Source of the DNA: a virus
Virus record (IMG/VR): IMGVR_UViG_3300020202_000204
Coordinates: 1-25,804 of that record
Strand: one strand, 5' to 3'
Length of the DNA: 25,804 nucleotides
Part shown: in pieces, positions 3,596 through 24,010 of the stretch
Layout: each line of letters begins with the position of its first letter
Position numbering within the stretch: position 1 is the stretch's first letter
Made by a program: the position numbers and the translations under genes
Notes under the pieces: model-generated
Told to the model about the DNA's origin: nothing
Databases searched by the model: none
The model's input: the letters and a program-made list of their open reading frames with translations, nothing else

Positions 3596-3732
3596 GACTC
3601 TTCATCGTCACAGGAATATCCGCGAGCCTGCTTTTCTCATTCGCATCCTATCTTTGCATGTTTGATCGAGCGCAATGGGCTTCGCTGGCATCTCTAACCT
3701 TCTTCATGTGCCTTAGTGAATGGAGCCGCTGA
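3592..3732 (+). CDS. Tiny membrane protein, 46 aa
   Basis: Frame of 46 codons whose ATG overlaps the previous stop. It encodes two hydrophobic stretches (about residues 3-23 and 28-42), short for two full spans but enough for one span plus a membrane-associated helix. The N terminus could also be read as a signal peptide, but no good cleavage site is present. Ends one base before the next ATG. Supported by position, coupling and hydrophobic composition; function unknown. Confidence 0.5.
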   Translation: MRLFIVTGISASLLFSFASYLCMFDRAQWASLASLTFFMCLSEWSR

Positions 3733-3733
3733 A

Positions 3734-3841
3734 ATGATCGAAATCCCATCTTATACCGAGATCTTTGCCACGCTCGCTCTAATCCTCATTCCACCAATCA
3801 TAGCCGGACTCCTCGCCTACAAATGGACTCAAAGCCGATGA
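3734..3841 (+). CDS. Tiny single-pass membrane peptide, 35 aa
   Basis: Frame of 35 codons starting one base after the previous stop and overlapping the next start. Residues 9-29 form one hydrophobic helix with two prolines in its centre (LILIPPIIAGLL), followed by a short basic tail, KWTQSR. The layout (acidic outside, basic tail) suggests a type I-like or tail-anchored peptide. Too short to assign; its place in a chain of coupled genes is the main evidence. Confidence 0.45.
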   Translation: MIEIPSYTEIFATLALILIPPIIAGLLAYKWTQSR

Positions 3842-3987
3842 AGGAATATTTGAAAGACTGCCTGCATGCTATCGCGTGGGCTCTGGCACTAAATGCCATC
3901 TTCTACGCCACATGGTTCTTCTGCGAGTCTGCACAGACAAAGGTTAACAATCGCGGGCGGATAGAGGCTCCTCTTAAACGCAGATGA
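3838..3987 (+). CDS. Small membrane protein, 49 aa
   Basis: Frame of 49 codons with ATGA overlaps at both ends. An in-frame ATG at 3823 would add five residues. One hydrophobic segment at about residues 9-29 is rich in Ala, Leu and aromatic residues and holds Cys8 and Cys29 near its borders. The C-terminal 20 residues are strongly basic and hydrophilic. The shape resembles small phage holins or pinholins, but no sequence family is recognised. Confidence 0.5.
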   Translation: MKEYLKDCLHAIAWALALNAIFYATWFFCESAQTKVNNRGRIEAPLKRR

Positions 3988-4283
3988 AAACACTTGCAGA
4001 AATCATACTCAGCCTACTTCTGATGCCGATCCTGCTTCCATTGCTCTTCATTACGGCTGGATTTGCCATTACTTGGGATGCAGTGGCAAGTCTCAGACCG
4101 AGAAGGGAGCCAATTGTTTACCCACTGGATCACGTAATTGAACGAACCACCTTTACTGTAACCATCGCAAGCCCTCGAAGCCCCTGCCATGGAGATCTTT
4201 TACAGGTTGGCCATAACACATTTCAAGAGCTGAGGAATATCGAGAAACAGAGCAAAGGCGTTTACAAGGCGAGGCTTGTATGA
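3984..4283 (+). CDS. N-terminally anchored membrane protein, 99 aa
   Basis: Protein of 99 residues. Residues 5-32 form a long hydrophobic N-terminal segment (rich in Leu, with MPILLPLLFI), followed by a basic LRPRRE stop-transfer patch and a soluble C-terminal domain of about 60 residues that looks beta-rich. The soluble part has one cysteine (SPCHGD). The gene is ATGA-coupled on both sides. Topology, inferred from the positive-inside rule, would place the C-terminal domain in the cytoplasm. No family recognised. Confidence 0.6.
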   Translation: MKTLAEIILSLLLMPILLPLLFITAGFAITWDAVASLRPRREPIVYPLDHVIERTTFTVTIASPRSPCHGDLLQVGHNTFQELRNIEKQSKGVYKARLV

Positions 4284-4408
4284 TGGGTGATTGGCTCTTT
4301 TGGGATAAGTACGACACGCTTATTGCGATAACTATATTCAGCCTTTTACCTCTTACGCTCTGGATTGCGTTTTCCCTCTACACTATATTCAAAAGACATC
4401 GCAACTAA
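4280..4408 (+). CDS. Tiny single-pass membrane protein, 42 aa
   Basis: Frame of 42 codons that begins MMGDWLFWDKYD, has one hydrophobic span at about residues 14-36, and ends in a basic KRHRN tail. The start overlaps the previous stop; the stop lies five bases before the lipoprotein gene. Either of two adjacent ATGs (4280 or 4283) could be used. Acidic N terminus and basic C terminus predict N-out/C-in topology. Function unknown. Confidence 0.5.
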   Translation: MMGDWLFWDKYDTLIAITIFSLLPLTLWIAFSLYTIFKRHRN

Positions 4409-4413
4409 ACTTT

Positions 4414-4890
4414 ATGAAAACACTGATATATCTACTGGCAATCACATGCATGATAACAGGCTGCTCCAAGCAGCCACCACCGAAGCCACAAGTCACTCAA
4501 CCGTACTTTGAAGGCTTTGAAGCCTATCAAGTGCCGGAAGCCCCACCTTCTACCGTAAAATGGCGAGGTGAAGTCAAGATCGACAACGAAGTGAAGCGCA
4601 CAGGCAATTCCTCACTGCGCATGACCACTAAAACCAAGCGCGAGCCCAACGTGTTCTATTACCTCTCATTCAAGCATGGCAAAGCAGGGAAGAAGCTCAC
4701 CTTTTGGGCGAAGGGCAAGGATAACTCATGCTTTTGGGTGTCTACTGAAAGATCATGGAATGCCCGTGTTTATGTGGACATGCTCACAAGCGACTGGAAG
4801 CAGTACGAGGCAACGTGCCTTGAAGATACACTCTACATCGTGAGCGAAGGAGCTGGAACCGTTTGGGTGGATGATATTCGTATCCAATGA
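4414..4890 (+). CDS. Lipoprotein with jelly-roll carbohydrate-binding-like domain
   Basis: Protein of 158 residues with a lipoprotein signal peptide and lipobox ITGC, lipid-modified Cys being residue 17. Serine follows the cysteine, which in most Gram-negatives favours outer-membrane sorting. A Pro/Lys-rich linker leads to a beta-sandwich-like domain (about residues 32-158) resembling CBM4/9- or galactose-binding-type jelly rolls: it opens with YFEGFEAYQ and closes with AGTVWVDDIRIQ, the usual last strand of such domains. A phage-encoded surface lipoprotein could bind host glycan or mask a receptor. Lipoprotein status is well supported; ligand binding is inference. Confidence 0.7.
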   Translation: MKTLIYLLAITCMITGCSKQPPPKPQVTQPYFEGFEAYQVPEAPPSTVKWRGEVKIDNEVKRTGNSSLRMTTKTKREPNVFYYLSFKHGKAGKKLTFWAKGKDNSCFWVSTERSWNARVYVDMLTSDWKQYEATCLEDTLYIVSEGAGTVWVDDIRIQ

Positions 4891-5093
4891 AGAAGATTCT
4901 TTTTGCCGCATTGTTTTTCGTCATTTTCCCTATTGGAATTCTATATCTCCAATCATGGCTTTTATGGAAGATTCCGCATGGTCCCCATTGGTGGACTGGG
5001 CCAACCTTGGTTGTTCACCTTCTAAGTAATTTTGCGCTTTTTGTGGGATCGATATCATTCGGCATTTACCAGATTAGCAAGAAAACACAATGA
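4887..5093 (+). CDS. Two-span membrane protein, 68 aa
   Basis: Small protein with two hydrophobic spans (about residues 5-23 and 41-62) separated by a loop rich in Trp, His and Pro (WKIPHGPHWWTGP). Both ends are basic, which fits both termini in the cytoplasm. Coupled by ATGA overlaps to the lipoprotein upstream and the O-antigen-ligase-like gene downstream. The size and two-span shape are compatible with a holin-like protein or an accessory subunit of the neighbouring transporter-sized protein. No family recognised. Confidence 0.6.
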   Translation: MKKILFAALFFVIFPIGILYLQSWLLWKIPHGPHWWTGPTLVVHLLSNFALFVGSISFGIYQISKKTQ

Positions 5094-6154
5094 CCCATCT
5101 AGCCCTATTCACACTCTTCTTCTTCCCCGCTATGACCCTTGTAGGTCAGACGGCACGAATGATCACCGTTGCCATGTGTCTGCTCTGCTGTCATCCACGC
5201 ATTGAAAAGAAGCTGGCAGAACCAGGCATCCTGCTCATGGTATGGCTGGCATGGGCTACTCTCTGCTCATGGTATGGCAACAGCTTCGATATGTCTCTAT
5301 TCGGCTATTACAAGCGATTTGAAGGGCTTTCCATGTGGCTCCTTGCCGTGTCCTTTGGCTGGTTATTTTGGCGTTCATCCAGCCTTAACAGGCTTTACCT
5401 GTCCATCGGCGCAATCTTTGCCGTCTGCCTCACGGTCATGCTTATAGAGCCTAAAATATATGGCGGAATCATCTATGGACATATCACCATAGCCGCCTTT
5501 GCTGCCATAGGCTCCTGCATCCTCATGGCGAAACATCCAGCCTTCATCGCCTGCGCTATTCCTTTCGCGTTCATTACTGGAAATAGGTCAATTGTGATTG
5601 CATTGCTGTGTGGTGGTGGCTGCTACTTGGCTTTAAACTGGAAGAAGCTGCCAAGGAAGCTCATCTATGCCATGGCCAGCCTATTCCTCATAGCCGCCCT
5701 TGGAGTCCTGCCAAAGCTGCTCACGATGGACATCAGGAGCCTAGGCAAAGGCGTGCGCACCCAAGTTGCAATGGAAGCCGTTCAATACATCGCTATGAAG
5801 CCTGTTATGGGTTACGGCATCGACACTCAAAGCACCTTATTCGGCAAGAATGAGCATGAGAAAATAACTCATGAGATAAGAGGTAGGGTTTTAGAGCTTC
5901 AAATGGACTTGGACCGCTGCCATAACATTTTCTTGGATGTCACCATGCAAACAGGCTTCGTAGGGCTCGCTATATGGCTCTTCCTGCTTACGAGGATGGC
6001 TTATAGGGCGTTTTGTTATCCATCTGAGGTCAACACGGCTTGTCTGTGTGGAATGGCTGCGTTCATAGGCTTCAACTTGGCAAATCCCTGTGGAATTCCA
6101 TCTATCTTTTTAGCCTGTATTTGTATAACTGGAATTGAGAAGGAAAAGCTATGA
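5090..6154 (+). CDS. O-antigen ligase-like (WaaL/PglL/Wzy superfamily) membrane protein
   Basis: Polytopic membrane protein of 354 residues with about ten predicted spans. The last large periplasmic loop ends in HNIFLDVTMQTGFVG (residues 278-292), an exact match to the H-[NSQ]-x9-G-x-x-[GTY] signature of O-antigen ligases and related O-oligosaccharyltransferases. His278 would correspond to the catalytic histidine. Other family features: KRFEGLSMWL (75-84), TGNRS (163-167), Arg223, and KPVMGYG (237-243). Enzymes of this family join lipid-linked glycans to lipid A-core, protein or growing polymer at the periplasmic face. In a phage it could alter host O-antigen and so block superinfection, or change the receptor. 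Somewhat shorter than typical WaaL (about 400). Acceptor substrate cannot be told. Confidence 0.78.
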   Translation: MTHLALFTLFFFPAMTLVGQTARMITVAMCLLCCHPRIEKKLAEPGILLMVWLAWATLCSWYGNSFDMSLFGYYKRFEGLSMWLLAVSFGWLFWRSSSLNRLYLSIGAIFAVCLTVMLIEPKIYGGIIYGHITIAAFAAIGSCILMAKHPAFIACAIPFAFITGNRSIVIALLCGGGCYLALNWKKLPRKLIYAMASLFLIAALGVLPKLLTMDIRSLGKGVRTQVAMEAVQYIAMKPVMGYGIDTQSTLFGKNEHEKITHEIRGRVLELQMDLDRCHNIFLDVTMQTGFVGLAIWLFLLTRMAYRAFCYPSEVNTACLCGMAAFIGFNLANPCGIPSIFLACICITGIEKEKL

Positions 6155-6396
6155 ACTGCCCAACCTGCCGCCAAAAAGTTAGCGCTCATCACATGTTACT
6201 TGAGCAAATTAAGGAAATTCAAATTAAGCACGTCAAAAAACCAGAGATGCGGGCTTATCTCGGGAAGCAAGAGAGGGAGGAGTTGAGCAACGATTTAAAG
6301 CCGTGGTTTTATGCTAATCTTGAAGGAGTCCATACGATTTACGGATGCCGAATAGTGCCGGTGGACTTACATAGCTATTTGAAGGTGGAAGCATGA
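6151..6396 (+). CDS. Small zinc-site protein, 81 aa
   Basis: Soluble protein beginning MNCPTCRQKVSAHH, a CxxC pair next to two histidines that could bind zinc. The rest is a charged helix followed by a beta-rich end with YGCRIVPVDLHSY. Joined by ATGA overlaps to the ligase-like gene upstream and to the next gene. No homologous family recognised; probably a small cytoplasmic accessory protein. Confidence 0.6.
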   Translation: MNCPTCRQKVSAHHMLLEQIKEIQIKHVKKPEMRAYLGKQEREELSNDLKPWFYANLEGVHTIYGCRIVPVDLHSYLKVEA

Positions 6397-6635
6397 CCGA
6401 AGAGGAGCTAAGAGCAATTAAAGCCGTCTTCGAGGCTGAATCCAGGAAGCGAGGAGGCAAAATAGATGTCGGCATCAGTAAAGAAGGATGGCGCATTTAC
6501 ATCCTGCTTAGGCTGCGTAGCGATACAGATACCAGTGAAGACCTTATTTGCCGCTATAACATATCAGCAATCGCACCACTGGAGCCGCAAGCTGTAAAGT
6601 ATTTCGACAGCTTTGAGAAGAATCTAAAAATATGA
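6393..6635 (+). CDS. Hypothetical protein, 80 aa
   Basis: Soluble, mixed alpha/beta protein. It has an N-terminal acidic helix, MTEEELRAIKAVFEAESRK, then two probable strands around KIDVGISKEGWRIYILLRL. No cysteine motif other than Cys53 and no membrane segment. ATGA-coupled upstream and downstream. Family and function not recognised. Confidence 0.55.
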   Translation: MTEEELRAIKAVFEAESRKRGGKIDVGISKEGWRIYILLRLRSDTDTSEDLICRYNISAIAPLEPQAVKYFDSFEKNLKI

Positions 6636-6982
6636 AACCTATATTTATTACACTGTTTTGCTTTCTGCTTGTTGGCTGTGAAGGCAAGATCGTTCCAGCC
6701 ATCGCTAAAATACAAGGGTATGAGGTCGTAGGCTCGTTCAAGGGAACGGTGGTTTATCACGATAATTCAAACTTTGAATTCCAAGGCGTCTGCTCAATGA
6801 CCACAACTGAGGATTATAGAGTAGTTAACTGGGTTGAGCTTGATAACGGAAAAACCACATGGGCTTATGGCCCTAAAATGTGTGATGTCGGGACGAGAGT
6901 GATTGTTGACATCTATGTCATGCGCGAAGGGCTTTTCAGTGGAGAAGATTTTTACAGGCAGACTTTCAAGATTATTGAATAA
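6632..6982 (+). CDS. Small lipoprotein, 116 aa
   Basis: Protein with a clear lipoprotein signal peptide ending in lipobox LVGC (Cys16). The mature part of about 100 residues looks beta-rich and has two cysteines (CSMTT and MCDVG) that could form a disulfide in the periplasm. The last residues (FYRQTFKIIE) look like a terminal beta strand. It is the second lipoprotein of this island and probably acts in the envelope. It is too large and too ordered for a typical o-spanin, and no inner-membrane spanin partner is obvious. Function unknown. Confidence 0.65.
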   Translation: MKPIFITLFCFLLVGCEGKIVPAIAKIQGYEVVGSFKGTVVYHDNSNFEFQGVCSMTTTEDYRVVNWVELDNGKTTWAYGPKMCDVGTRVIVDIYVMREGLFSGEDFYRQTFKIIE

Positions 6983-7041
6983 ATGAACACCCAAACCCTT
7001 CTAGCGGATCAGGCTAGGACAAAACCCGAAAGGTTTATCCT

Positions 7042-7476
7042 ATGGCGATCCGTACACTGGTCAAAGTCGCAGTCCTAATCTCACTCATGGTCTACGCTCA
7101 GGCCCATATGAGCGAACAGCTACAGTCAAGAGGCCGTCAGCTTGCATTTCTGCGAAACCTGCCACACCGCTATCTTGGAATGCTCTACTACTCGTGGCTA
7201 CTCCAACAGCACCGAACCGATTACTTGGCGCAATACGCCATCAACTGGAACATTGCCGTTCGTGACCGTGGAGCCATCTTGGAAGGTATGACAAAGCCCG
7301 TGGTGACGCTGCTCATCCTAAAACAGATGCAAGATCATCCAGAAGATGAAGCCTTGCGACGACTCGGAAAGCTTATGGTCAAACAGGAGTTTAAAGACCG
7401 CGCTGAGAACCTAATGCCCGCGCAACCTGTGATCGACACTGCTCCGACTGTGCTAGGTGAGTCTTTACCCCGATAA
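7042..7476 (+). CDS. Secreted helical protein, last gene of the plus-strand block
   Basis: Protein of 144 residues with a Sec-type signal peptide: basic start, hydrophobic core of about 12 residues, and a cleavage motif AQA after residue 21. The mature part is helical and rich in Leu, Arg and Gln, with HRYLGMLYYSWLLQQHR and a Pro-rich tail. The start follows CGAAAGG at a workable distance. It is the only gene after 3.2 kb not coupled by an ATGA overlap; about 59 bases separate it from the lipoprotein gene. Its last 86 bases overlap a minus-strand frame. Unknown family; likely periplasmic. Confidence 0.6.
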   Translation: MAIRTLVKVAVLISLMVYAQAHMSEQLQSRGRQLAFLRNLPHRYLGMLYYSWLLQQHRTDYLAQYAINWNIAVRDRGAILEGMTKPVVTLLILKQMQDHPEDEALRRLGKLMVKQEFKDRAENLMPAQPVIDTAPTVLGESLPR

Positions 7477-7537
7477 GGATTAAGCCGCCTACGATCACAA
7501 TTGCGCCGAGGATGGAGAGAGCGAGGAAGAGGATCAT
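7391..7537 (-). CDS. Tiny membrane protein at the end of the structural operon, 48 aa
   Basis: Frame of 48 codons whose ATG overlaps the stop of the 681-residue ejection-type gene (ATGA). Residues 2-24 are one continuous hydrophobic helix with Gly-Gly near its end (ILGAIVIVGGLILIG). The rest is a hydrophilic, basic tail with one Cys. It overlaps the 3' end of the plus-strand gene 7042-7476 by 86 bases on the opposite strand. Coupling and hydrophobicity support it, but the tail may be shaped by the opposing gene. Could be a holin-like protein; not assigned. Confidence 0.4.
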   Translation of the reverse strand: MILFLALSILGAIVIVGGLILIGVKTHLAQSEQCRSQVARALGSQRGL

Positions 7538-9579
7538 TTAGATTCGATGGCTTTTTTAAGGATCAAATCGCGCTCGGTGGGAGTCATGTCTTTTCGATCT
7601 TTGGATTCTGAAACTATCCCCGAAAGCTTGGCGATCAACTCATTTGCTTTGGGTGAGGTTAATGGGGTCTGAATGGCCTCCGTTAAAAACTTTGTGCCCC
7701 AATTGCTTGTATAAAGCTTGGCTAGCACAGGAGGAGTAATGGCAACCGCGCCACCCGCTAAAGGATTGTGCATAAACAAGCTGCCGACGCCCGCGCCATA
7801 GCTGAATGTAACAACTTGAGGAGCTGTTCCAGATGGATTGCCAACGCGCTTTTCCATCTTTGAAACAGATTCCGCAACTTTCCAAAACTTTTGGATCTCA
7901 GTCACCTTTTGCTTTCCGAACACGGCTTCAAGGTTCTCAGGGGTGAACTTTGCAAGACTTGTTCCAAACTTATCGGGAGAGAAAGCGTCGATGCCATCTG
8001 TTTTTAAGATTCTTTCCATGACCGCACGTTGCACGGGCTGGAATCGGTTCACTCCAAGGGCGGACTTCAATCCGTTAATTTCTTGGACGGTCCCAGGCTG
8101 CGCAATCATGTCGTAGACCAAGCCGGGATCTTTCTGAATGATTCTTTGGATTTTAGGATCGTTAAAGATTCGAGCCCCCTTGCCGTAGAAACCGTTAGCA
8201 AGCTCGAATGTCTGTTGAACCTGTCCACCTTGAAGCCGCGCAAAATCACCCAGACTCTTATCCATTTCACTCTTAATCATACCGAGCTTTCGCGCAACCT
8301 CGCCGCGCTCATTCTTCACTGCGCTGTTGATTTCGTCGTTCAATGCCGCTCGAATATCTAGGAATGTCCGAACATCTGTTGATTTTGGCAAGGCTTTGCC
8401 TGTGGGGTCAGCTTCGCCAACGAATGTTTTGAGTTGCGCAACCAGCTTTGAAGATCCAAGCCCCTCCTTATTGACTTCTCGCTCAATAAAGTCCTCTGCC
8501 AAGTCCCGAGAGCGACCCAATTGAATCTGCGTTCCTTTTGGCACAGACTGCTCAAATTTATCGTACAATTTTGATGCCGTAACTTTGAATCGGCTTTCCC
8601 GTGAGGCAATGCGCGATTGCACAACATCGCCAAAAGTCTGCTCGCTCATCCTTTGGCCGCTGTCATCAAGAAGGCTGTTAGCTTTATTGGAAAGTCCTTC
8701 CTGCACCGCTTCTCGCCGCGCCTGCATGATTCCAGAGGATAGGGGGACATTCTGCAACGCCTTCTCAGTCAAACCAAGCTGCCTTGATCCTGACGCCTGC
8801 GCTGCTGTAATAGGGATGTCCATACTCTTCGCCGTCTGGATGAGTTGGCCCGCTTCAGGATTGATCTTGCCCGCCAAAACCTTTTGAAGCAAAGCAGGAG
8901 AGCCAAGAGCCGCTGGCAGAATCGCACTAAGAGCCCCCGTTTTCAGCGCATCCTTGCCAATCTGCATTTTGTCATTAGCAAGACGGTCAATGCCGCCCTC
9001 CTTGATACTTTCACTAGCACCCATGCCACCGCCAAGGATGCCAGCCGCGCCGATTCGTCCAAGATTGCTTGTTACTTGAAACACCTTGCCCGCAGGCACC
9101 ACGCCGCCAACAAGATTGCCCGTCAACACCGTGCCGGGATTCTCTTCAGCAACGCGGTTAACGCCGAGCGCATCCACAGCTTCAGGCGATGCCATCTTGG
9201 CCTTGAGAAGTAAATCTTGAATGATGCGAGCAGGCCCAGAGGTGAAGCCGCCGCCTACTGTGGCAGCTAAAGCGCGAGGAATTGCACCTTGTCCTTTGAC
9301 GCCTACCTTTTGATCTGGAAAGCCGCCATTAACCAACATCAGCCGCTCAGGATCACGCGCTACAGCTCGTTCTTGTGCGATCTTAAGAGCTTCCTCTCGT
9401 GTGGTCGTGCGCCCGATGCCAGCATGAGGAACGCCGCCTTGGTCAACAGGAGCCGCCGCCGATTGCTGCCCATCGAAATGCTCGATTGCCTCGTCAACGT
9501 CCTGCTCGTTCGGCTCATTCTCAAAGTCAACCTTGTAAGTCTTGCCCGTCTTCGCGCTCTGTAGTTCGTATGTGGGCAT
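7534..9579 (-). CDS. Large internal virion / DNA-ejection-type protein
   Basis: Protein of 681 residues, the largest and one of the last in the structural operon. The N terminus (MPTYELQSAKTGKTYKVDFE, then a DVDEAIEHF helix) resembles the short leading domain common on phage internal virion proteins. Then come a Gly/Ala-rich region with hydrophobic glycine-zipper-like stretches (about residues 150-235) and long charged helical regions. No lysozyme or transglycosylase active site is visible. In podoviruses the genes after the tail hub encode ejection proteins that leave the capsid and form a channel across the envelope. Role is inferred from position, size and composition. Confidence 0.6.
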   Translation of the reverse strand: MPTYELQSAKTGKTYKVDFENEPNEQDVDEAIEHFDGQQSAAAPVDQGGVPHAGIGRTTTREEALKIAQERAVARDPERLMLVNGGFPDQKVGVKGQGAIPRALAATVGGGFTSGPARIIQDLLLKAKMASPEAVDALGVNRVAEENPGTVLTGNLVGGVVPAGKVFQVTSNLGRIGAAGILGGGMGASESIKEGGIDRLANDKMQIGKDALKTGALSAILPAALGSPALLQKVLAGKINPEAGQLIQTAKSMDIPITAAQASGSRQLGLTEKALQNVPLSSGIMQARREAVQEGLSNKANSLLDDSGQRMSEQTFGDVVQSRIASRESRFKVTASKLYDKFEQSVPKGTQIQLGRSRDLAEDFIEREVNKEGLGSSKLVAQLKTFVGEADPTGKALPKSTDVRTFLDIRAALNDEINSAVKNERGEVARKLGMIKSEMDKSLGDFARLQGGQVQQTFELANGFYGKGARIFNDPKIQRIIQKDPGLVYDMIAQPGTVQEINGLKSALGVNRFQPVQRAVMERILKTDGIDAFSPDKFGTSLAKFTPENLEAVFGKQKVTEIQKFWKVAESVSKMEKRVGNPSGTAPQVVTFSYGAGVGSLFMHNPLAGGAVAITPPVLAKLYTSNWGTKFLTEAIQTPLTSPKANELIAKLSGIVSESKDRKDMTPTERDLILKKAIESK

Positions 9580-12007: not shown

Positions 12008-12922
12008 TTATTTGAATGCGTTGACCTTCAAGAGCCACTTGGTGTTATCAATGGCGAGTGATGCGCCAGTACCTTTGTCTAAGATGTAAAACGTGTTTGC
12101 CGTGTTCCCATAGCGAAGAACCAGGGTTGTGGTAGTTGGGACAATGGCAACACCAGTGTTTTGCCCTGATAGAACCGTTGTAAAGGAAACAGCAACCTCA
12201 TCATTCGCTGAATAGCCGCCTTCCGTGGAGGTATTAATTAGCTTTGCAAAAACAAGCGAGGGCGTGTCCCCAAGCCCATGAGTCAGCGTTACAGTCCCAG
12301 CCGCCGTGATCACAACGCCCGTACTCATATAAGCCTTAGAGAAAGGCGTGATGGTCGTGTCTAGGACGCCTGAAGGGTTAAGCTTAACCACCTTTCCAGA
12401 GTCAGCCGCACCCGCGCTGTTCGTGGTTCCAGATACAGCCGCCGACGAAACCTGATTATTGGCATATGTCAGCGTTGTGCTAGGCCCAGCATAGTTTATC
12501 GTCGTGTTGACGTTCGTGTGCCAGTGTGTGCCAGAGCGGAAATTCAGGTTCGTGTTTAGCTCAATCTCTGTAAGCGTGTTTGTAACAATGTTGTTGGCTG
12601 TGATCGTCCTAGATCCGATGTCTGAGCCTGTAAGCGTGGCGTCCAACACCTTCGCGCTCGTCACCGAATTAGGCGCGAGGTCAATAGCTCCGATAGTTCC
12701 ATCTGTGATGTCCCCTGAAACGATGTCGGAAATCGTTGCGTTGTTAATCGCGTTGTTGAGGTGGTAATACTGAACCGTCTGGTTTGTCGTGAACGTGACG
12801 CCAGTTGTTACCGTAGCCGCATGAGTGGAAGGCAGCGGGTTTGCCATCCAAGAAGCAACGAAGCTACCGAATAACGCCCCAATGAAAAGAGCCGCGAAGA
12901 ATTGTTGTTTAGTGCATTTCAT
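12008..12922 (-). CDS. Fibre-like repeat protein with an N-terminal signal peptide
   Basis: Protein of 304 residues. The N terminus has Lys residues, a hydrophobic core (ALFIGALFGSFVASW) and a THA-A cleavage-like site near residue 35. Residues 66-122 hold loose repeats with the rhythm D-I-x-D-G-T-I, N-S-V-T-S-A-K and T-I-T-A-N-N-I, as in trimeric phage fibre shafts. The C-terminal part is beta-rich and Thr/Ser/Asn-rich. Placed just after the tail hub, it fits a receptor-binding fibre. A Sec signal on a virion fibre would be odd, since virions assemble in the cytoplasm; the hydrophobic segment may instead anchor or interact within the particle. Fibre role is inferred. Confidence 0.55.
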   Translation of the reverse strand: MKCTKQQFFAALFIGALFGSFVASWMANPLPSTHAATVTTGVTFTTNQTVQYYHLNNAINNATISDIVSGDITDGTIGAIDLAPNSVTSAKVLDATLTGSDIGSRTITANNIVTNTLTEIELNTNLNFRSGTHWHTNVNTTINYAGPSTTLTYANNQVSSAAVSGTTNSAGAADSGKVVKLNPSGVLDTTITPFSKAYMSTGVVITAAGTVTLTHGLGDTPSLVFAKLINTSTEGGYSANDEVAVSFTTVLSGQNTGVAIVPTTTTLVLRYGNTANTFYILDKGTGASLAIDNTKWLLKVNAFK

Positions 12923-14474: not shown

Positions 14475-15197
14475 TTAAACCCCTGTCTTACTCGTGAAAT
14501 TCACGTTCGATTTAAGCCCGATTTGCATCCGTGGAATGATTCGCCGCTTAGCTGCGCTCTGTACTTCCTGAGCGTCTACGAGGAGCCTGATTGCATTCTC
14601 GAACTTGGCTTCGTGCTTTGCCGCCTGAGCGTGATCTTCCCACCAGTAAGTAAACATGTCAGCCGTTGCACCTTCGATAAGGGCGTCAGAATCGCCAAGA
14701 ATCCATGTTTCATCGTTCGTCAGGTCTTGAAACCCAGCCTTACCCCAAAAGCTTAGGGTTGTGGCTGCTGTGTAAGATCCGAGAAGGTGAATACCGCTCT
14801 GCCCTCGATTGATGAAGTTAACCGGAGACGTTGAGGAAGCCCATGCGCCTGCGTCTACGCTATTCACCGCGCCGATATCTTCAGGTAGTAACGGGTTATC
14901 ACCTTCACGAACGGCTCCAATCTCATAGAAAGCCGCATCTCTACCTCTTCCATCTGTATCGAAACCGCTTTCAATAGAGATACTGGCAAGCGTGATAGCC
15001 TTTATCGTTGCCGCAACTGACTTCGAGCCTAGAATGACGTACTCTCTCCACAAACGCCGAGCCCACACGTTTTTAGCGCGTTGGTTGATATGCTGCTTGA
15101 TGTCAACAAGCGCATTCGTTGCGGGCGTGCTGCTGTTGTTAGGGATGCGAGAATTTCGCAACACCTTGAGAGCAGCCTGTGAGAGTGTGTCACTCAT
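14475..15197 (-). CDS. Tail tubular A / head-tail adaptor-like protein
   Basis: Protein of 240 residues lying immediately before the tail hub gene, the place of the adaptor (T7 gp11 / P22 gp4 type) that forms a ring between portal and hub. The N-terminal half is helical (SQAALKVLRNSRIPNN; INQRAKNVWARRLWREY). The central part is loop-rich with DTDGRGRDAAFYEIG, and the end is helical again (WWEDHAQAAKHEAKFENAIR) with a basic finish. That helix-loop-helix layout and length fit the family. No Shine-Dalgarno sequence is seen. Assignment rests on order, size and general fold rather than a diagnostic motif. Confidence 0.6.
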   Translation of the reverse strand: MSDTLSQAALKVLRNSRIPNNSSTPATNALVDIKQHINQRAKNVWARRLWREYVILGSKSVAATIKAITLASISIESGFDTDGRGRDAAFYEIGAVREGDNPLLPEDIGAVNSVDAGAWASSTSPVNFINRGQSGIHLLGSYTAATTLSFWGKAGFQDLTNDETWILGDSDALIEGATADMFTYWWEDHAQAAKHEAKFENAIRLLVDAQEVQSAAKRRIIPRMQIGLKSNVNFTSKTGV

Positions 15198-15509: not shown

Positions 15510-15658
15510 TTGCGCTTCTTGTCTTTGGGTTTCTCAGGTTTCGGAGGAGGATTGCACCAGTGACAATCCCGCTGGTAGGCAATCCTGTGGTGGTAGCAGC
15601 CTGACCGAAGCTCCTTAAGCCGCTGGGAGATGGCTGGATCATTGGTTTCGTTCGTCAT
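15506..15658 (-). CDS. Small Cys/His protein, 50 aa
   Basis: Frame of 50 codons whose ATG overlaps the stop of the alpha/beta hydrolase gene and whose stop overlaps the next start. It carries a compact cluster, CYHHRIAYQRDCHWC, with three Cys and three His, likely to bind a metal. A Pro/Lys-rich basic tail follows (PKPEKPKDKKRK). Probably a small nucleic-acid- or protein-binding zinc peptide; inferred from composition. Confidence 0.5.
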   Translation of the reverse strand: MTNETNDPAISQRLKELRSGCYHHRIAYQRDCHWCNPPPKPEKPKDKKRK

Positions 15659-16272
15659 GGCGTTACCCCCGTAATCATTTCAAAGCTGTCCTCGAAATTC
15701 TCATCATCCCACCATGCCGAGTGCTTATAATCCTTCCAGATGGTGCTTAAATGGATTGAGGCATAAGACGACACATTCTTAGGCCCAGACCTACCTAGGC
15801 TTCCGTAGCCATAACCAGCCCAACCAGCGAGAAACTTACTAATCCTTGCCCAAAATAGAGCTTCATCAATCTTCGAGCAATAGAGCTTCATTTTGCCGAT
15901 GCGGTCCTGCACCAAAGCGTCGTTGAAGCCGTTCTTATCAAAATCAGCGTCACAAGCAGCCGCTACAAGATGGGCCTCCTCAATGCGCACAGGAGTAATC
16001 CTAACTGCACGGCTAAAAAGCTCGCCGCCATTGGAGTGGGTGATAACCTTCAGCCTGAAATCAGGAGCAAGGCTTTCAAGAACCCGCGCTGCTTCCTCTG
16101 ACTTGCTGTTTAACTTGGTCTTTGTGCGTATAGGAGCAAACTCGCTATCAATCTCACGAGCTGGTTGCTTCAAATGCTTCTCAATCCAATCGCAACCGCT
16201 TGGCGACCAATTGAAGTTATCTTCAGCATCCGTCATGATCCCAGGAAATAGGCACCACTTGATAGGCTTCAT
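15655..16272 (-). CDS. Alpha/beta hydrolase (esterase/lipase-like)
   Basis: Protein of 205 residues with alpha/beta-hydrolase features: an early strand and oxyanion-type loop (WCLFPGIMT), then the nucleophile elbow VITHSNGGE (residues 76-84) with Ser80 as the likely nucleophile, an Asp candidate at 108 or 110 (ACDADFDKNG), and a C-terminal His candidate at 184 (YKHSAWW). The elbow is T-H-S-N-G-G rather than the usual G-H-S-x-G-G. Neighbours are small membrane proteins of a likely lysis set, so an envelope lipid esterase (comparable in role to mycobacteriophage LysB) is one reading; modification of a surface glycan ester is another. There is no signal peptide. Enzyme class is fairly secure, substrate unknown. 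Confidence 0.68.
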   Translation of the reverse strand: MKPIKWCLFPGIMTDAEDNFNWSPSGCDWIEKHLKQPAREIDSEFAPIRTKTKLNSKSEEAARVLESLAPDFRLKVITHSNGGELFSRAVRITPVRIEEAHLVAAACDADFDKNGFNDALVQDRIGKMKLYCSKIDEALFWARISKFLAGWAGYGYGSLGRSGPKNVSSYASIHLSTIWKDYKHSAWWDDENFEDSFEMITGVTP

Positions 16273-16499: not shown

Positions 16500-16576
16500 T
16501 TGAGGAGTTCGAAACAAAATAGGGTTACGATCCCGCCAAGAAGCAGAAGTGCGTCATGAATAAGTTGATTAATCAT
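16496..16576 (-). CDS. Tiny membrane peptide in lysis-like cluster, 26 aa
   Basis: Frame of 26 codons with ATGA overlaps at both ends: its start overlaps the stop of the XhlA-like gene and its stop overlaps the next start. It encodes one hydrophobic helix (LLLLGGIVTLFCFELL) after an eight-residue polar lead. Placed right after an XhlA-like protein, it resembles a minimal holin-partner peptide. The exact tiling argues for translation; function is inferred. Confidence 0.45.
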   Translation of the reverse strand: MINQLIHDALLLLGGIVTLFCFELLK

Positions 16577-16788
16577 GGAAAAAGCTTCGCAATCTTCTCC
16601 TTGAAAAATTCGATGACAATAACTCCAGCCGCAATGAATCCAGTTGCGTGCCAGACCTTTTTCTTCACGTCCTCCACATCTTTCTCGACCTTGGAAGTAC
16701 GGTCGTGGATTTCGATCATCTTCGACTTAATCCAACGCACATCCGTGTGCGTTTCGATCAGGATCGTCTTGTCATCCTTTTCGCTCAT
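16573..16788 (-). CDS. XhlA-like holin-associated membrane protein, 71 aa
   Basis: Protein of 71 residues. Residues 8-45 are a charged coiled-coil (HTDVRWIKSKMIEIHDRTSK, then VEKDVEDVKKK), and residues 46-61 are a C-terminal membrane span (WHATGFIAAGVIVIEFF) with a short basic tail. This is the layout of haemolysin XhlA-type phage proteins, which work with a holin at the inner membrane. The start overlaps the previous stop by one base (TAATG). Together with the next two small genes and the alpha/beta hydrolase it forms a probable lysis or envelope cluster. Family-like layout is clear, role in lysis inferred. Confidence 0.6.
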   Translation of the reverse strand: MSEKDDKTILIETHTDVRWIKSKMIEIHDRTSKVEKDVEDVKKKVWHATGFIAAGVIVIEFFKEKIAKLFP

Positions 16789-16989: not shown

Positions 16990-17325
16990 TTATTTCTCTG
17001 ATTGAGGCTTCCAGTCTTCCGTGAGCTTCACAGGCGTTTCTTCCGGTACGTGCTGAGTTACTCCCTGCACTTGAAGTGCCCACTCGTTGCGCGTTGGATG
17101 CTTTAAAATAGGAGCGTGGTGAAGGGTCGTTGACTCCGCTTTTGACGCATGGAGCCCGCCACCAACTTTCACACCTTCCTTGGGATATCCAAGGGCTGCA
17201 TCAAGCTTGGCTTGGATGGCTTGAATCGCAGCAAGATCAGTTTTAACAACGTAATCTTTCGACATGTCCTGAGCAAAGACATGACCAGCGGCAAAGAGGA
17301 TTGAGAGGATTTTAATAATGCGCAT
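16990..17325 (-). CDS. Secreted small protein, 111 aa
   Basis: Protein with a clear Sec signal peptide: basic MRIIK start, hydrophobic core (ILSILFAAG) and a VFA cleavage motif after residue 18. The mature part starts with a helix (DLAAIQAIQAKLDAALG), then a loop region with KHPTRNEWALQVQGV, and ends charged. The start lies 14 bases inside the preceding gene. It is one of four tandem secreted products downstream of the capsid gene. Not recognised; the signal peptide is well supported. Confidence 0.6.
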   Translation of the reverse strand: MRIIKILSILFAAGHVFAQDMSKDYVVKTDLAAIQAIQAKLDAALGYPKEGVKVGGGLHASKAESTTLHHAPILKHPTRNEWALQVQGVTQHVPEETPVKLTEDWKPQSEK

Positions 17326-18295
17326 ATCTATTCTTGAGATAGGTTTCGACCACTTGGCGGTCTGACGTAGAAAGAGCCGCGCTGTACATAATCACCTCTA
17401 CGATATCCCCAGCAAGAGAACTGGCATCAGCACCGACAGTGGCATCAGAAGCTTCCGCTCCTATGGTAAACCAATCAACAGTAGAGGCGGGATAACTAGA
17501 AGAAGCTGCATTTTCCTCAACTAAAGTACCATTCTGCCAAATATCCCATTCTGAGGAGGAGCGAACATAAGAACGTGTATAGAATGTGTTTGCACTCATC
17601 GCCTCACCTGCGCCTAAGTTATCGGGTGCAAATCCAAGCCCGCTAGTTGCTGAGGTTCCTGTGCTAAAACACCAACGAGATGTCGCGTCATCTCTTATAC
17701 TCAACAAGCGTTCTTGAGTGTCTTGTGCGGCCCCTGTAGAGACTACAAAGAAAATTGTCCAGCTAGCCATGTCAGGCACGACAAGAGTATTTCGTCGAAG
17801 GTGATCTGGTCCGCCCACACCTGGACCTTCAAATCGAATGGCGGGAAAACCGTTAATAACGCTCGAGACTAAGGTGGGCTGATAACCCGCATTAGCTTGT
17901 GCTAGATTGTGCCCATTCCCACTCTGGTCTGCCCATGCGCTAACATCAGACCCGTTTAGGGTAGTTCCACTATCTGACTTGTACCAAGCGAAGAGGCCGG
18001 TAATGTCATCTGGAGAGTCGGGAGCAGCGGGAGCTGCCGCGCTAGCCGGAAAGGCATCCGTCAATTGATTCCGAGACTCTCTACAAACCGTGGCGCAAGC
18101 CTGAATATCTGCGTCACTCGTGGCAATCGCCGCGTTAAGCTTTACCCTCTGCTCACCGTCCAATGTCTGAACACCGCTTGCCGTACCATTGGCAATAATC
18201 TTATTTACCTGCTCCCTGTCTAGATCATCTCCAAGCGCAACCGAGCCCGCTACGAATAGCAGGAGCAGCAACAAATCATGGAGCCAATTACGCAT
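17312..18295 (-). CDS. Secreted protein with LamG / concanavalin A-like jelly-roll domain
   Basis: Protein of 327 residues. A signal peptide with a long Leu-rich core (LLLLLLFVAGS) ends near ALG, residue 22. A helical region (about 25-80) and an Ala/Pro linker follow. Residues 99-327 look like a LamG-type jelly roll: it opens with ITGLFAWYKSDSG, then WADQSGNGHNLAQ, and ends GDIVEVIMYSAALSTSDRQ with a last helix LKNRYAHY. Such domains bind glycans or calcium and are frequent in both phage structural proteins and secreted bacterial proteins. The start overlaps the previous stop by one base. A signal peptide on a capsid-proximal gene is unusual. Confidence 0.68.
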   Translation of the reverse strand: MRNWLHDLLLLLLFVAGSVALGDDLDREQVNKIIANGTASGVQTLDGEQRVKLNAAIATSDADIQACATVCRESRNQLTDAFPASAAAPAAPDSPDDITGLFAWYKSDSGTTLNGSDVSAWADQSGNGHNLAQANAGYQPTLVSSVINGFPAIRFEGPGVGGPDHLRRNTLVVPDMASWTIFFVVSTGAAQDTQERLLSIRDDATSRWCFSTGTSATSGLGFAPDNLGAGEAMSANTFYTRSYVRSSSEWDIWQNGTLVEENAASSSYPASTVDWFTIGAEASDATVGADASSLAGDIVEVIMYSAALSTSDRQVVETYLKNRYAHY

Positions 18296-18759
18296 TATTC
18301 CCGTTTCAGCGGATAACCGACTTGGATTGAAATATTGCTAACGCTTCCCGCAAATGAGTTTTCAATCTGTCCCACCGCTAAATACTTCGCGCCCGATAGG
18401 TTGAAGCGGTCTGAGACTGTGATTGTTGAGCCATTAATCGAATTGCTGATAACAAGCTTGATGTTACTCAAAGCTGCCGAATCGTAAGCGTTCGTGGTTG
18501 TTCCAGAGCCGCTTGCAGTGATGAGTTTCGCCGTCAGCGCGCCGTTAGTCGTGGCTGCATACCCCGTAGCTGTCAGGTACACCCGCACCCACTCGTTGCC
18601 ATCGCTAAGCAGCTTCACCGTCGAGGCTGTGGTGTTCGTGGTGTTCGCCGCCATGTTTGTTACGGTCGTCGCCAGTCGGAACGCCTCCGAAGACTGCGCC
18701 TTTACGTCCTGAACCAACAGCCCAACCAAACAGACAACCGCAATAAGAAATCGTTTCAT
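18295..18759 (-). CDS. Secreted beta-rich protein, 154 aa
   Basis: Protein with a Sec signal peptide (MKRFLIAVVCLVGLL core, cleavage motif VKA after residue 21). The mature part is rich in Thr, Ser, Asn and Ala and looks all-beta, with LLSDGNEWVRVYLTATGYA, TVSDRFNLSGAKYLAVGQI and NISIQVGYPLKRE. The composition and length resemble the neighbouring 199-residue secreted protein, so both may be decoration- or surface-type proteins. It follows a strong hairpin terminator and has no Shine-Dalgarno sequence before its ATG. Function unknown. Confidence 0.6.
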   Translation of the reverse strand: MKRFLIAVVCLVGLLVQDVKAQSSEAFRLATTVTNMAANTTNTTASTVKLLSDGNEWVRVYLTATGYAATTNGALTAKLITASGSGTTTNAYDSAALSNIKLVISNSINGSTITVSDRFNLSGAKYLAVGQIENSFAGSVSNISIQVGYPLKRE

Positions 18760-18774
18760 AATGAATCAAGGAAA

Positions 18775-18805
18775 GGGCGAGGAAGGCGTTAAACCCTCCC
18801 CGCCC
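18775..18805 (-). terminator. Rho-independent terminator after first secreted gene
   Basis: Inverted arms 18775-18786 and 18794-18805 with a 7-base loop. In minus-strand RNA the 12-base stem pairs without a mismatch, using two G-U pairs; in plus-strand RNA the same positions are A-C mismatches, so the structure belongs to the minus strand. It is followed there by TTTCCTTGATTCATT, a T-rich but interrupted tract. It begins 14 bases after the stop of the gene at 18819-19418 and just before the next start. It probably ends or attenuates the capsid transcript. Confidence 0.7.
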
Positions 18806-18818
18806 GAATCCGGTTTAC

Positions 18819-19418
18819 TTAGTTTTTGATGCGAACACCGCTAATGCTGAGACGGCACGAGGTAGTATTACCATCGAGCGTCAGAGCAGAGGGCAGGTCT
18901 GACGGAAGCCAGATATCTGCAACCCCAAGCGTGGAAGAAACCACATTAGGAGCATGCCGTCGTGAGACAGCCTTACAGGGATAGATCTTATCCGCTGTGG
19001 TAGTTGCCGCACTTAGCGTTTCCTGAATGGTGACAGACGTAGCCGCGCTAGCTGTGGTCCGATACAGGTAGTACGTGTTCGTTGACACATCATAGAAGAT
19101 CACATACTCAAGTGCCGCCACATGAGTAGGCGTATCATTGTCGAACCATAGAACAGAGCCGGACGCCGTTGCCGACGTAATGGACTGTTCAGATTCGGCC
19201 TGATGTATGTCAATCGTGCCTGTGGTGACCAACGTGTCGAGGTCATAACTCACATCGGTGATGTGAGCAATACCCGCACCGCGTGGAACAAACACAGTTG
19301 CCGACGCAGTGCCGTTTGCAGAGGTGTTGAATACACTTGTAATGTAATCATCAGCTTGCAGAGGCAGCGCGAAGGCCAGAGCCAACGCCATCACTAATTT
19401 AACGAGGATGTTATTCAT
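18819..19418 (-). CDS. Secreted beta-rich protein directly after capsid, 199 aa
   Basis: Protein with a textbook Sec signal peptide (KLVMALALAFALPLQA, cleavage after residue 22, then DDY). The mature domain is Thr/Ser/Ala-rich and probably all beta, with SVFNTSANGTASATVFVPRG, VIFYDVSTNTYYLYRT and a final strand CRLSISGVRIKN. It is the first gene after the major capsid gene, where head decoration proteins usually lie. Either it is a decoration-like protein that acquired export, or a phage protein displayed on the cell surface. AAGGAA lies 13 bases before the ATG, a marginal ribosome site. Confidence 0.6.
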   Translation of the reverse strand: MNNILVKLVMALALAFALPLQADDYITSVFNTSANGTASATVFVPRGAGIAHITDVSYDLDTLVTTGTIDIHQAESEQSITSATASGSVLWFDNDTPTHVAALEYVIFYDVSTNTYYLYRTTASAATSVTIQETLSAATTTADKIYPCKAVSRRHAPNVVSSTLGVADIWLPSDLPSALTLDGNTTSCRLSISGVRIKN

Positions 19419-19451: not shown

Positions 19452-20420
19452 TTAGGCCGCGTTGTAGTGAGACTTGAGCTGCACGATCTTTGTCGGATCG
19501 AGCACGATTCCACCGAATGGGATACGGTAGGAGATGTAGTAGTAAGCCTTTGACTTGCTGAGGTATGGATTGATCCAGAACTCAGGAGCGAAGCCGCCAC
19601 CCTTGGAAGTTCCACCAAAACGGCTGGCAGCGTAACAATCACCTTCAGCGAAGATGTAGTTGGTTACGATCTGGCCGCTGTCATCGCGTGTTCCTTCCGT
19701 ACCGGCTGCGGTCTCACGGAAAGGCTCGTGCATAAGATGGATAGTCGCTCCACCCCATTCACCGAGTTTTCCAGTGCGCATTTCCTTGCCTCCCGACTGC
19801 TTCGAGAAGTCACGGAAGCTTGCATCATACTCAAACAAGCTCTGTCGGCTCCAAGGATTAATCACAACGTGATACGGTCCTTTGTGCCCCTGCTTGATCA
19901 AGTAACTGATACCAGCTTGAATGTCGGTCTCACGGAAGTAATCATCCGAGGTAAGAGCCCCAAAAGAGCCTTTACCGTTGGCGTACATCTCATGAGCCTT
20001 CGTGAACGAGTTGTTGCCGCTGGAGCTTCCTGCGTTGATGGCAGTAGTCAATCGGCGGTTCGCAGTGCGTTCAGCCTGTTCGCGCATCTTGACGTAAGCT
20101 TCCTTAGCGTTCTTGATGAGCCGCTGTTTGTCAGCGTAGTAAACGATCTTGAGGGCTTTCGAGAACTCAGTCAGTTCGACTTTGTACTCGGTCATCGCCA
20201 TCGTTTCATCAGTGGCAGGGTCTACGCCTTCAGCCACGTCTTCAGCAAATCCTAGTTTGCTCCATCGGAATACGTGCATTACGTCTTTCCGACCATCTGG
20301 AATGGTAGGTTTATCTGCCATTCTCAGAAGAGGAGAATCATATTCCCGCTCTTCCATTGCCTCTTCAGTGAAATAATCCTGAATTGCCGCCAAGTCTGTA
20401 CTGAGTTCACCATTAGCCAT
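19452..20420 (-). CDS. Major capsid protein, N4-gp56-like HK97 fold
   Basis: Protein of 322 residues. Features of the N4 gp56 family of HK97-fold capsid proteins: an N-terminal helical arm, then VFRWSKLGFAEDVAEGVDPA (E-loop/P-domain region), a spine helix KNAKEAYVKMREQAERTANR followed by LTTAINAG, a central KGPYHVVINPWSRQSLFE, and a C-terminal strand region ending IPFGGIVLDPTKIVQLKSHY. Length is typical. The gene lies after a scaffold-like gene, the usual order. It has no Shine-Dalgarno sequence (AT-rich leader, AACAATAAAAT), surprising for the most abundant virion protein. Expected to form the icosahedral shell. Confidence 0.9.
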   Translation of the reverse strand: MANGELSTDLAAIQDYFTEEAMEEREYDSPLLRMADKPTIPDGRKDVMHVFRWSKLGFAEDVAEGVDPATDETMAMTEYKVELTEFSKALKIVYYADKQRLIKNAKEAYVKMREQAERTANRRLTTAINAGSSSGNNSFTKAHEMYANGKGSFGALTSDDYFRETDIQAGISYLIKQGHKGPYHVVINPWSRQSLFEYDASFRDFSKQSGGKEMRTGKLGEWGGATIHLMHEPFRETAAGTEGTRDDSGQIVTNYIFAEGDCYAASRFGGTSKGGGFAPEFWINPYLSKSKAYYYISYRIPFGGIVLDPTKIVQLKSHYNAA

Positions 20421-21715: not shown

Positions 21716-22100
21716 AAATTGCGTTACTGTTAATGCGACTGTTATTGTTGACCATTTTCGCGAACATATCTTCGAGCCTAGTTTCTGTCAACTTACGATC
21801 TGCTATCTCTTTTTTAGACGCACTAAGCATGACCAACATGCGCGCCATAGACTTCCATGCCTTAGATTCTGCCTTGATATCAGCCAAGTCCGGCTTTGCG
21901 ACCTTAGTTACTTCGCTAGCCACCTTGACGCTATTCCACGCCATGGCCTTTATAAGCTTCTTTCCTGAATCAGTCCTCAGGTAGTCATTTAATGCGGTGG
22001 AATCGTCGTTCTCCCAGTTGATCTCTGCGAAATAGTCTAGAACAGGCTGGCGTACGTAGCTGGCAGCTAGCTTGATGATGAATCGTTTAAAGATGTTCAT
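21702..22100 (-). CDS. Hypothetical helical protein between portal and scaffold, 132 aa
   Basis: Protein of 132 residues, almost entirely helical and charged. It has an N-terminal amphipathic helix (MNIFKRFIIKLAASYVRQ) and Lys-rich helices (SVKVASEVTKVAKPDLADIK). No cysteine or membrane span. Its start overlaps the portal stop (ATGA), so it is translated with the portal. Position suggests a head-assembly factor; there is no protease motif. Family not recognised. Confidence 0.6.
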   Translation of the reverse strand: MNIFKRFIIKLAASYVRQPVLDYFAEINWENDDSTALNDYLRTDSGKKLIKAMAWNSVKVASEVTKVAKPDLADIKAESKAWKSMARMLVMLSASKKEIADRKLTETRLEDMFAKMVNNNSRINSNAIYGKS

Positions 22101-24010
22101 GCCACCGCCAGTTGTGGAGCTACTGCCGCATGTGCCGCCTGATCCAACTGATCCATCATTGCGGTAATCTGCTCGTAGCCCTGTTTGTTTGTCTTCTTAA
22201 GCTGCTCCCGTTGCATCAAGAGATACTGCGAAATCTGTCCAAGCTTCTGAGGCTCGACTTGCTGGCCTGATTGCATGAGCTTCTGCAAGGTCTGAATGGC
22301 CACCTGCGCCTTGACCATTGGATCTCCACCCTGCTTAGGTACAATCTGGCCATGTACAAGAGCGTTAGTCATATCGTTGAGAGCATCCCGCGCTGAATCC
22401 ATCTGCGCTTGTCCGTTCTCCATCACAAAACGTTCCACGCGCTCAGGCTCGGAGTTTTCCACCACGTTCTTGTACAACTCTAGGATATTGGCCGTGTTCG
22501 GCTGCGCCTCATTCGCGGTAATTCCAAGGTTAAACAGCGCAATGGAGTTGTTAAGCTGCGCCTCACGGTTCAGAGCGTCAGCGGAGCCGTTGACCTCAAC
22601 GAAGTAATCATCTGAAAGCAGGTTCTTATCGAACTGCGCAAAGCCTTCCTTGGTCATGAAATCCCACTCCTCAATTTGATCTTTGAACTCGTTGAGCAAG
22701 CCGAGCTGCTTCTTCATAATCTGGCCGATAAACATCTTCCAGTTAGACAGCTCAGACTCAGTGTTTAAGTTATTCTGAAATGCAATGGCTTTGACCTCTG
22801 TAGCCGTTCTCGCTTCTCCAAGCGTGTTAGCCTTGCCAAGCCCAAAGTCAGGGCTTCCCACCCATCGCTCAAAGATGCTGCGCTGAAAATTGATCTGCTC
22901 CACGAACTCCACGGGAACCTCGCCCATATCAACCTTTGTCAATTGACCGGGGAGAATGGTCCCAGGCTCGAAATCAAGGTTCTGAGTCGTGGACGGCATC
23001 GAGTCCGGCGTTGTGGGATAAAACACCGGACTGGAGAATAATTGAAGGGTGTTGAGCAACCCGCGCCACATGGCAGAGATGGAGTATTCAAGCTCCGTTG
23101 CCTTCTCTGTGATGCCCTGCGAGCTGTAGAAGTGAGGTGTGATCTCCTCGTACTTGCTGGACTCAAACATGTACCTATCAGCCTTCACCATGGACTCGTA
23201 AGGATAGCCAAAGGGGTCTATGAGCTTCAGCGAGGGATCATCAGGTAGGATATACTCCATCATCATCTTCCCGCTGTCTTTGTGCCTAAAATGCTTTTCC
23301 CATAACACAATACTGTTTGTCTTGGCCTTGCTGCGGCTAATCCCCATCCGGTCGTAGGAATGCCGCTCAGACTCGCCGCTGTCAGAGTCGTTCGTGTTAA
23401 CGTCACCATCCGTGAATTTCTTCAAGAATGCTTCTAAAGCCGCCTTGTCCGGCGTCGTATCCATGAACCGCTCTTTAACCCAGCTAACAGACTTTTCGAG
23501 CACATGCGCACAGTGAGGGGCTTCGTGGATATCGTGACAATCAGAGGGAACGATGAAGAAAATAGGAGGAATAGACTCGTGGATGATCTTGCCTTTCTTC
23601 GTATCAAAGAAGGTCTTCATGATGCAAAGACCGTTCTGCATCTGTTGCCATGCAGAGTATTGAATCTGCTTCTCGAAGTCAGTGCGTTGCTTCGTGTAGA
23701 AATCAAAGTAACCAGACACCAAGGGAGCCTTGTCGATCATCTCCTTCTGCCGAGCAATCAAGGTCGTGATATTCTTACTCGAATGAATCAGCTTATTCCT
23801 GAGTGGCAATTGCTGCGTAATGGTCATCTGCGCCAGCAAGTACCGATGATTAGCCGCTCCAGGCCACGGATAAGACATGATATCAGGACGATCTAAGCCG
23901 TAATACTGCGCGAAGAGCTGCGCTATCCGCTTCTCCCATTCCTTCCGGGCATCCAAAGCCTCCATCGTCTCATCATAAGACTTATACTTACCTTTGAGAA
24001 TGGACGCCAT
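22097..24010 (-). CDS. Portal protein (podovirus type)
   Basis: Protein of 637 residues, a normal length for podovirus portals, placed after the terminase and before scaffold and capsid. Typical regions: an N-terminal wing with DIMSYPWPGAANHRYLLAQM, a central beta-rich wing with IPPIFFIVPSDCHDIHEAPH, a stem/crown part with KANTLGEARTATEVKAIAFQ (helix leading into the channel), and a long Gln-rich C-terminal barrel helix (MDQLDQAAHAAVAPQ). The portal forms the dodecameric DNA entry ring and binds the terminase. GAAAGG lies 10 bases upstream of the start. Internal regions are acidic around residues 205-215, probably a loop. Confidence 0.88.
   Translation of the reverse strand: MASILKGKYKSYDETMEALDARKEWEKRIAQLFAQYYGLDRPDIMSYPWPGAANHRYLLAQMTITQQLPLRNKLIHSSKNITTLIARQKEMIDKAPLVSGYFDFYTKQRTDFEKQIQYSAWQQMQNGLCIMKTFFDTKKGKIIHESIPPIFFIVPSDCHDIHEAPHCAHVLEKSVSWVKERFMDTTPDKAALEAFLKKFTDGDVNTNDSDSGESERHSYDRMGISRSKAKTNSIVLWEKHFRHKDSGKMMMEYILPDDPSLKLIDPFGYPYESMVKADRYMFESSKYEEITPHFYSSQGITEKATELEYSISAMWRGLLNTLQLFSSPVFYPTTPDSMPSTTQNLDFEPGTILPGQLTKVDMGEVPVEFVEQINFQRSIFERWVGSPDFGLGKANTLGEARTATEVKAIAFQNNLNTESELSNWKMFIGQIMKKQLGLLNEFKDQIEEWDFMTKEGFAQFDKNLLSDDYFVEVNGSADALNREAQLNNSIALFNLGITANEAQPNTANILELYKNVVENSEPERVERFVMENGQAQMDSARDALNDMTNALVHGQIVPKQGGDPMVKAQVAIQTLQKLMQSGQQVEPQKLGQISQYLLMQREQLKKTNKQGYEQITAMMDQLDQAAHAAVAPQLAVA

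Follow-up and report, generated by a model that had tools for sequence, protein, structure and literature searches.

Background

Serotype-converting phages such as epsilon15 alter the sugar coat of the cells that they infect. The ligase WaaL binds an undecaprenyl-diphosphate glycan donor by means of arginine and histidine residues, which also drive the inverting transfer. The seroconverting O-antigen beta-polymerases of phages epsilon15 and D3 contain the Wzy_C domain, whose presence in phage polymerases is linked with beta-linked products, and the superinfection resistance of D3 lysogens is due to Iap and Wzybeta (PMC4815439). Three residues, R215, R288 and H338, are essential in E. coli WaaL, and the genes of PglL-type O-oligosaccharyltransferases commonly adjoin the genes of their targets (PMC3643930).

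We analyzed here a phage gene of the same superfamily. The DNA under study (hereafter the window) makes up an entire IMG/VR virus record, 25,804 bases long, which is classed as linear and is probably a fragment. Its features around the enzyme gene are the following, where the relative is the closely related phage described below.

4414..4890, + strand: lipoprotein with a beta-sandwich (carbohydrate-binding-module-like) domain; lipobox ITGC; 32% identity to the protein of the relative
4887..5093, + strand: 68-aa protein with two hydrophobic segments; start/stop overlap (ATGA) with both neighbours
5090..6154, + strand: Wzy_C / O-antigen ligase superfamily integral membrane protein, 354 aa; Pfam PF04932, profile matches to PDB 7tpg and 9rmk, AlphaFold2 model best matched by WaaL 7tpg
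5585..5587, + strand: R166 in GNRS, opposite R191 of 7tpg and R215 of E. coli WaaL; replaced in some of the viral proteins
5756..5758, + strand: R223, opposite R265 of 7tpg and R288 of E. coli WaaL; kept in all 26 aligned viral Wzy_C proteins
5810..5818, + strand: G241-Y242-G243; G241 and G243 invariant in the 26 proteins
5921..5965, + strand: signature H278-N-x9-G289-F-V-G292, read directly from the sequence; same 15-residue pattern in the epsilon15 beta-polymerase
6151..6982, + strand: run of three small genes that overlap one another and the 3' end of the Wzy_C gene; no conservation in the relative

Results

The enzyme belongs to the Wzy_C superfamily

The reading frame at 5090-6154 (+ strand) has an ATG start, and residues 278-292 of its product, HNIFLDVTMQTGFVG, fit the pattern H[NSQ]-x9-G-x-x-[GTY] exactly, just as the initial annotation had reported; Arg223 and the GYG motif, which it had also listed as kept, are present too. 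The pattern arises in 0.8% of shuffles of the 354-aa protein, so that the motif on its own carries only moderate weight. It is preceded by a conserved Arg and a G-x-G in one long loop (R223, G241/G243, H278...G292). The protein is a true member of the Wzy_C (PF04932) superfamily: residues 152-297 match the Pfam model with E = 2.2e-14 and 53.9 bits against a curated cut-off of 31.7, and the counterpart in the relative reaches E = 7.8e-16 and 58.6 bits against the same cut-off. That it is an enzyme of this class appears highly probable to us. It has no PHROG match, and down from an E value of 1 its Pfam and NCBIfam matches, on which the PglL-specific comparison was based, include no PglL model.

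IMG/VR was searched with a DNA pattern that encodes HN-x-[FY]-L-[DE]-x3-E-x-G-x-x-G, which found 47 contigs, some of which may include host DNA. A Wzy_C match is present in 46 of the 47; phage-associated Wzy_C genes are therefore common, and it is not unusual for a phage to encode the motif. When the proteins of both phages were aligned with 24 other viral Wzy_C proteins (26 sequences), R223, G241 and G243 were invariant. These three residues lie outside the search pattern through which the aligned proteins were chosen, whereas the H, N, L, G and G positions lie inside it.

The profile of the two-phage family matched that of the other viral Wzy_C proteins with a probability of 96.8 over 300 columns. 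The joint 26-protein profile matched PDB 9rmk, an oligosaccharyltransferase (E 2.5e-22), and PDB 7tpg, WaaL (E 9e-22), which together with the Pfam match bears out the family, O-antigen ligases and O-oligosaccharyltransferases, originally proposed. This wider profile was needed because the two-sequence profile of both phages matched no solved structure and the single enzyme sequence found among solved structures only an unrelated chain (E 0.84). The initial annotation had made its reading depend on His278 standing at the conserved position, and the profile alignment indeed puts R166, R223 and H278 opposite R191, R265 and H313 of 7tpg (chain positions counted from the printed alignment); the equivalents of all three essential residues of E. 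coli WaaL are thus present. Searches with tblastn gave no close relative of the enzyme among 50,697 phage records, plasmids gave weak fragments only, and genome contigs scanned for exact peptides of the enzyme and of the terminase gave no match.

Predicted fold and topology

The AlphaFold2 model of the enzyme has modest confidence (pLDDT 63, pTM 0.67) and poorly defined N-terminal helices. Its best solved match in Foldseek was 7tpg (E 2e-3, the only convincing one), which was also the top match with VIA-align (Z 11.7, rmsd 6.1 over 305). FtsW and RodA, which have a related fold, follow closely with Z 11.0 and 9.2, so that the comparison with WaaL suggested at the outset gives a WaaL-like fold only as a tentative prediction. 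The fold of 9rmk was outside the structural comparison list, so that its absence there is not evidence against it. A large loop of about residues 212-280, with R223 and with H278 at the expected position at its end, is predicted to be periplasmic, because of the model and of the positive charges that flank it (K185-K190, R302, R306).

A related phage and the genome setting

One close relative was found among IMG/VR contigs, IMGVR_UViG_3300020215_000037 (41,281 b; L002 below). The two phages share 86% identity in the portal and 85% in the terminase. In the relative the counterpart of the enzyme lies in the same place, also has 354 aa, is 70% identical and keeps all key residues, R223 and G241-Y242-G243 being identical. 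By the Nei-Gojobori method dN is 0.21 and dS 1.74 (dN/dS about 0.12), which indicates purifying selection on the enzyme gene, and its reading frame is intact in both phages. In both, it stands at the end of the + strand early/accessory block and faces the - strand structural block; the Wzy_C domain is thus encoded in an accessory region between early and late genes.

Genes for a tyrosine integrase and an HTH repressor-like protein are present in the relative, and the lineage is therefore most likely temperate; the window, probably a fragment, has no recognisable integrase. The best named match of the terminase is an Akkermansia phage (29% identity), for which reason the host is probably a Verrucomicrobia-type bacterium (Verrucomicrobiota). 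In contrast to this resemblance of the terminase, adaptor and portal (14475-15197 and 22097-24010, - strand) match the Pfam models SU10_adaptor and SU10_portal of SU10-type podophages.

Neighbouring genes

The lipoprotein gene 4414-4890 is the first of the overlapping gene run. Its counterpart (L002 4250-4849) passes Pfam CBM_4_9, and a low-confidence model of the window protein shows a beta-sandwich whose nearest folds include CBM29 and CBM4 (Z about 7). The enzyme aside, it is the only upstream gene of the cassette that is kept in both phages, and its product could be a binder of the altered glycan or a target of the enzyme. Where the window has the 68-aa protein, the relative has an unrelated 52-aa ORF whose product is not a membrane protein. 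A small TM ORF upstream of the Wzy_C gene is found in only 7 of 43 other contigs, and the idea that such an ORF typifies phage Wzy_C genes was therefore rejected.

On the other side of the enzyme gene, the last of the three small genes (6632-6982) encodes a predicted lipoprotein. In both phages the + block ends with a gene (7042-7476, + strand, in the window) for a conserved (71%) protein with an N-terminal membrane segment. Promoter and terminator scans of 3600-7600 gave chance-level results, and Rfam gave no match in the window. Elsewhere, long phage Wzy_C proteins of about 660-690 aa (L026, L029, L030, L031, L043) are encoded behind a small single-TM protein that resembles holin-like lysis proteins; the product of 16573-16788 in the window is similar in kind.

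Proteins with signal-peptide-like N termini

Several proteins of the structural module whose genes closely follow that of the probable capsid protein (19452-20420), within 16990-19418 and 12008-12922 (- strand), have signal-peptide-like N termini. They are those of 18819-19418, 18295-18759, 16990-17325 and 12008-12922, all on the - strand, and to these can be added 17312-18295 (- strand), which by eye begins in a similar way, matches a PHROG virion protein and has a lectin-like Laminin_G_3 domain. The same proteins are encoded in the relative (L003 14601-15191, 15252-15704, 15701-16480 and 20538-21482), and these N termini suggest an export of apparent virion proteins in a tailed phage. The structural module also encodes an alpha/beta hydrolase-like protein (15655-16272, - strand, weak DUF900 match; Ser_hydrolase-like at L003 17272-17877 in the relative), possibly an envelope lipase or esterase.

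Signal-peptide ORFs also adjoin Wzy_C genes in unrelated phage contigs (L016, L051, L054, L055, L056, L020, L036), and several of them have Ser/Thr-rich virion-like sequences. They are commoner beside Wzy_C (17/105) than far from it on the same contigs (16/227; p=0.008 in a permutation test based on a crude signal-peptide predictor).

Discussion

Comparison with described systems

The epsilon15 beta-polymerase (AAO06084) carries exactly the signature of the window enzyme (H315-N-x9-G-A-I-G) and, like it, passes the Wzy_C cut-off. The signature therefore marks the superfamily and not a ligase, and the label of WaaL signature that the initial annotation had attached to it is not supported; ligase, polymerase and protein O-glycosylase are indistinguishable by the H[NSQ]x9GxxG motif. 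Both phage proteins have about 10 TM segments, and epsilon15 is temperate, as the relative of the window phage most likely is. Beyond the domain there is no direct sequence kinship between the two enzymes, and only for epsilon15 are host, genetics and product known. In fact, the two-sequence profile picks out neither the epsilon15 nor the D3 polymerase (E above 1), which argues against a special kinship with the polymerases.

Directly upstream of its polymerase gene epsilon15 encodes a 66-aa two-TM inhibitor of the alpha-polymerase (AAO06085), and the 68-aa protein of the window has the same placement. Their likeness consists of this placement and of the two hydrophobic segments, with no sequence similarity claimed, and the parallel is suggestive only; an inhibitor/polymerase pair is not conserved in the window lineage, because the relative keeps the Wzy_C gene without a small TM protein. 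The cassette of the window differs also in its CBM-like lipoprotein, none being annotated beside the epsilon15 or D3 polymerase genes. Wzybeta of D3 is likewise a phage-borne Wzy_C-type polymerase and part of a conversion unit, but its Wzy_C match is below threshold (21.9 bits) and it has one residue fewer between HN and GxxG than the window enzyme.

WaaL (PDB 7tpg, E. coli WaaL) shares with the enzyme the superfamily, the three Arg/His sites, the signature and the periplasmic loop, and is its closest solved fold. Identity is about 12-14%, however, and the enzyme model has fewer resolved TM segments. A PglL-type O-oligosaccharyltransferase (PDB 9rmk) shares superfamily and signature, and here too a possible exported target is encoded nearby; the window enzyme is shorter and lacks a match to PglL-specific regions in Pfam and NCBIfam.

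What the enzyme may do

Superfamily membership, the key residues kept, the position of the His and purifying selection together make it likely that the protein is active and acts on host glycans. The original suggestion that the conserved sites are functional thus stands as a prediction. Most likely the enzyme modifies the surface sugars of the cell that the phage infects, and it is more likely polymerase-like than an LPS ligase; the full reading, a polymerase-type conversion of the host surface, is one that we hold with middling confidence.

A true WaaL-type ligase, which would pass O-antigen of the host, or a different glycan, to lipid A-core and replace or compete with the host ligase, seems to us improbable. 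We know of no phage ligase of the WaaL kind that has been demonstrated, whereas phage polymerases have been. The three Arg/His sites essential in WaaL (PMC3643930) and the closest solved fold speak for such a ligase, but the signature is common to polymerases and glycosylases (PMC4815439). The protein might also be a decaying or non-enzymatic relative that acts as an inhibitor only by occupying the host glycan machinery, as its short length (354 aa) and modest model with ill-defined N-terminal helices would allow; strong purifying selection, intact frames in both phages and the retention of all catalytic-site residues make this the least probable of the readings.

We regard as unlikely, though less so than these two, a PglL-like protein O-oligosaccharyltransferase that moves host lipid-linked glycan to phage-encoded exported proteins, first of all to the lipoprotein two genes upstream. 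This lipoprotein has Ser/Thr in the Pro-rich linker behind its lipid anchor and is the only other 5' cassette gene kept in the relative, the phage encodes several exported Ser/Thr-rich proteins, and PglL genes often lie beside those of their targets (PMC3643930). The best PDB match of the profile is the oligosaccharyltransferase 9rmk, but 7tpg scores equally well, and no PglL-specific model of Pfam or NCBIfam was matched. The excess of signal-peptide ORFs near Wzy_C genes also points in this direction, but the predictor is crude and a clustering of envelope genes is to be expected anyway. A version in which a periplasmic O-oligosaccharyltransferase decorates the phage's own exported proteins with host lipid-linked glycan, these being the CBM-like lipoprotein, the signal-peptide proteins encoded in the structural module, or both, has in our judgement a slim chance; if it were true, such phages would possess a system for protein O-glycosylation, which would recur in the form of Wzy_C genes beside exported virion-like proteins.

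According to the preferred reading, that of surface conversion, the gene would be a phage accessory (moron, lysogenic-conversion) gene for an active inner-membrane glycan transferase of the Wzy_C superfamily. The Arg and His residues of its periplasmic loop would bind a lipid-linked donor as in WaaL, and, probably in the lysogen, the enzyme would take surface-glycan units that the host has made on a lipid carrier and join them in a way unlike that of the host. The most likely reaction would be a polymerisation, as by the seroconverting beta-polymerases of epsilon15 and D3, and the 68-aa membrane protein may interfere with the host enzyme. The outcome would be a changed surface polysaccharide and the exclusion of further phages.

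Significance

A phage-borne Wzy_C enzyme is of an already known kind, of which this protein is a further member. To take H[NSQ]x9GxxG as the mark of a ligase is an over-reading, as a known phage polymerase carries the signature too. The literature searched gave no report on phage conversion of surface glycans for an Akkermansia-phage-like lineage, and a glycosylation of exported phage proteins by the enzyme, if it takes place, would be new. Phage-encoded Wzy_C enzymes are hereby extended to a most likely temperate lineage whose terminase is nearest to those of Akkermansia phages.
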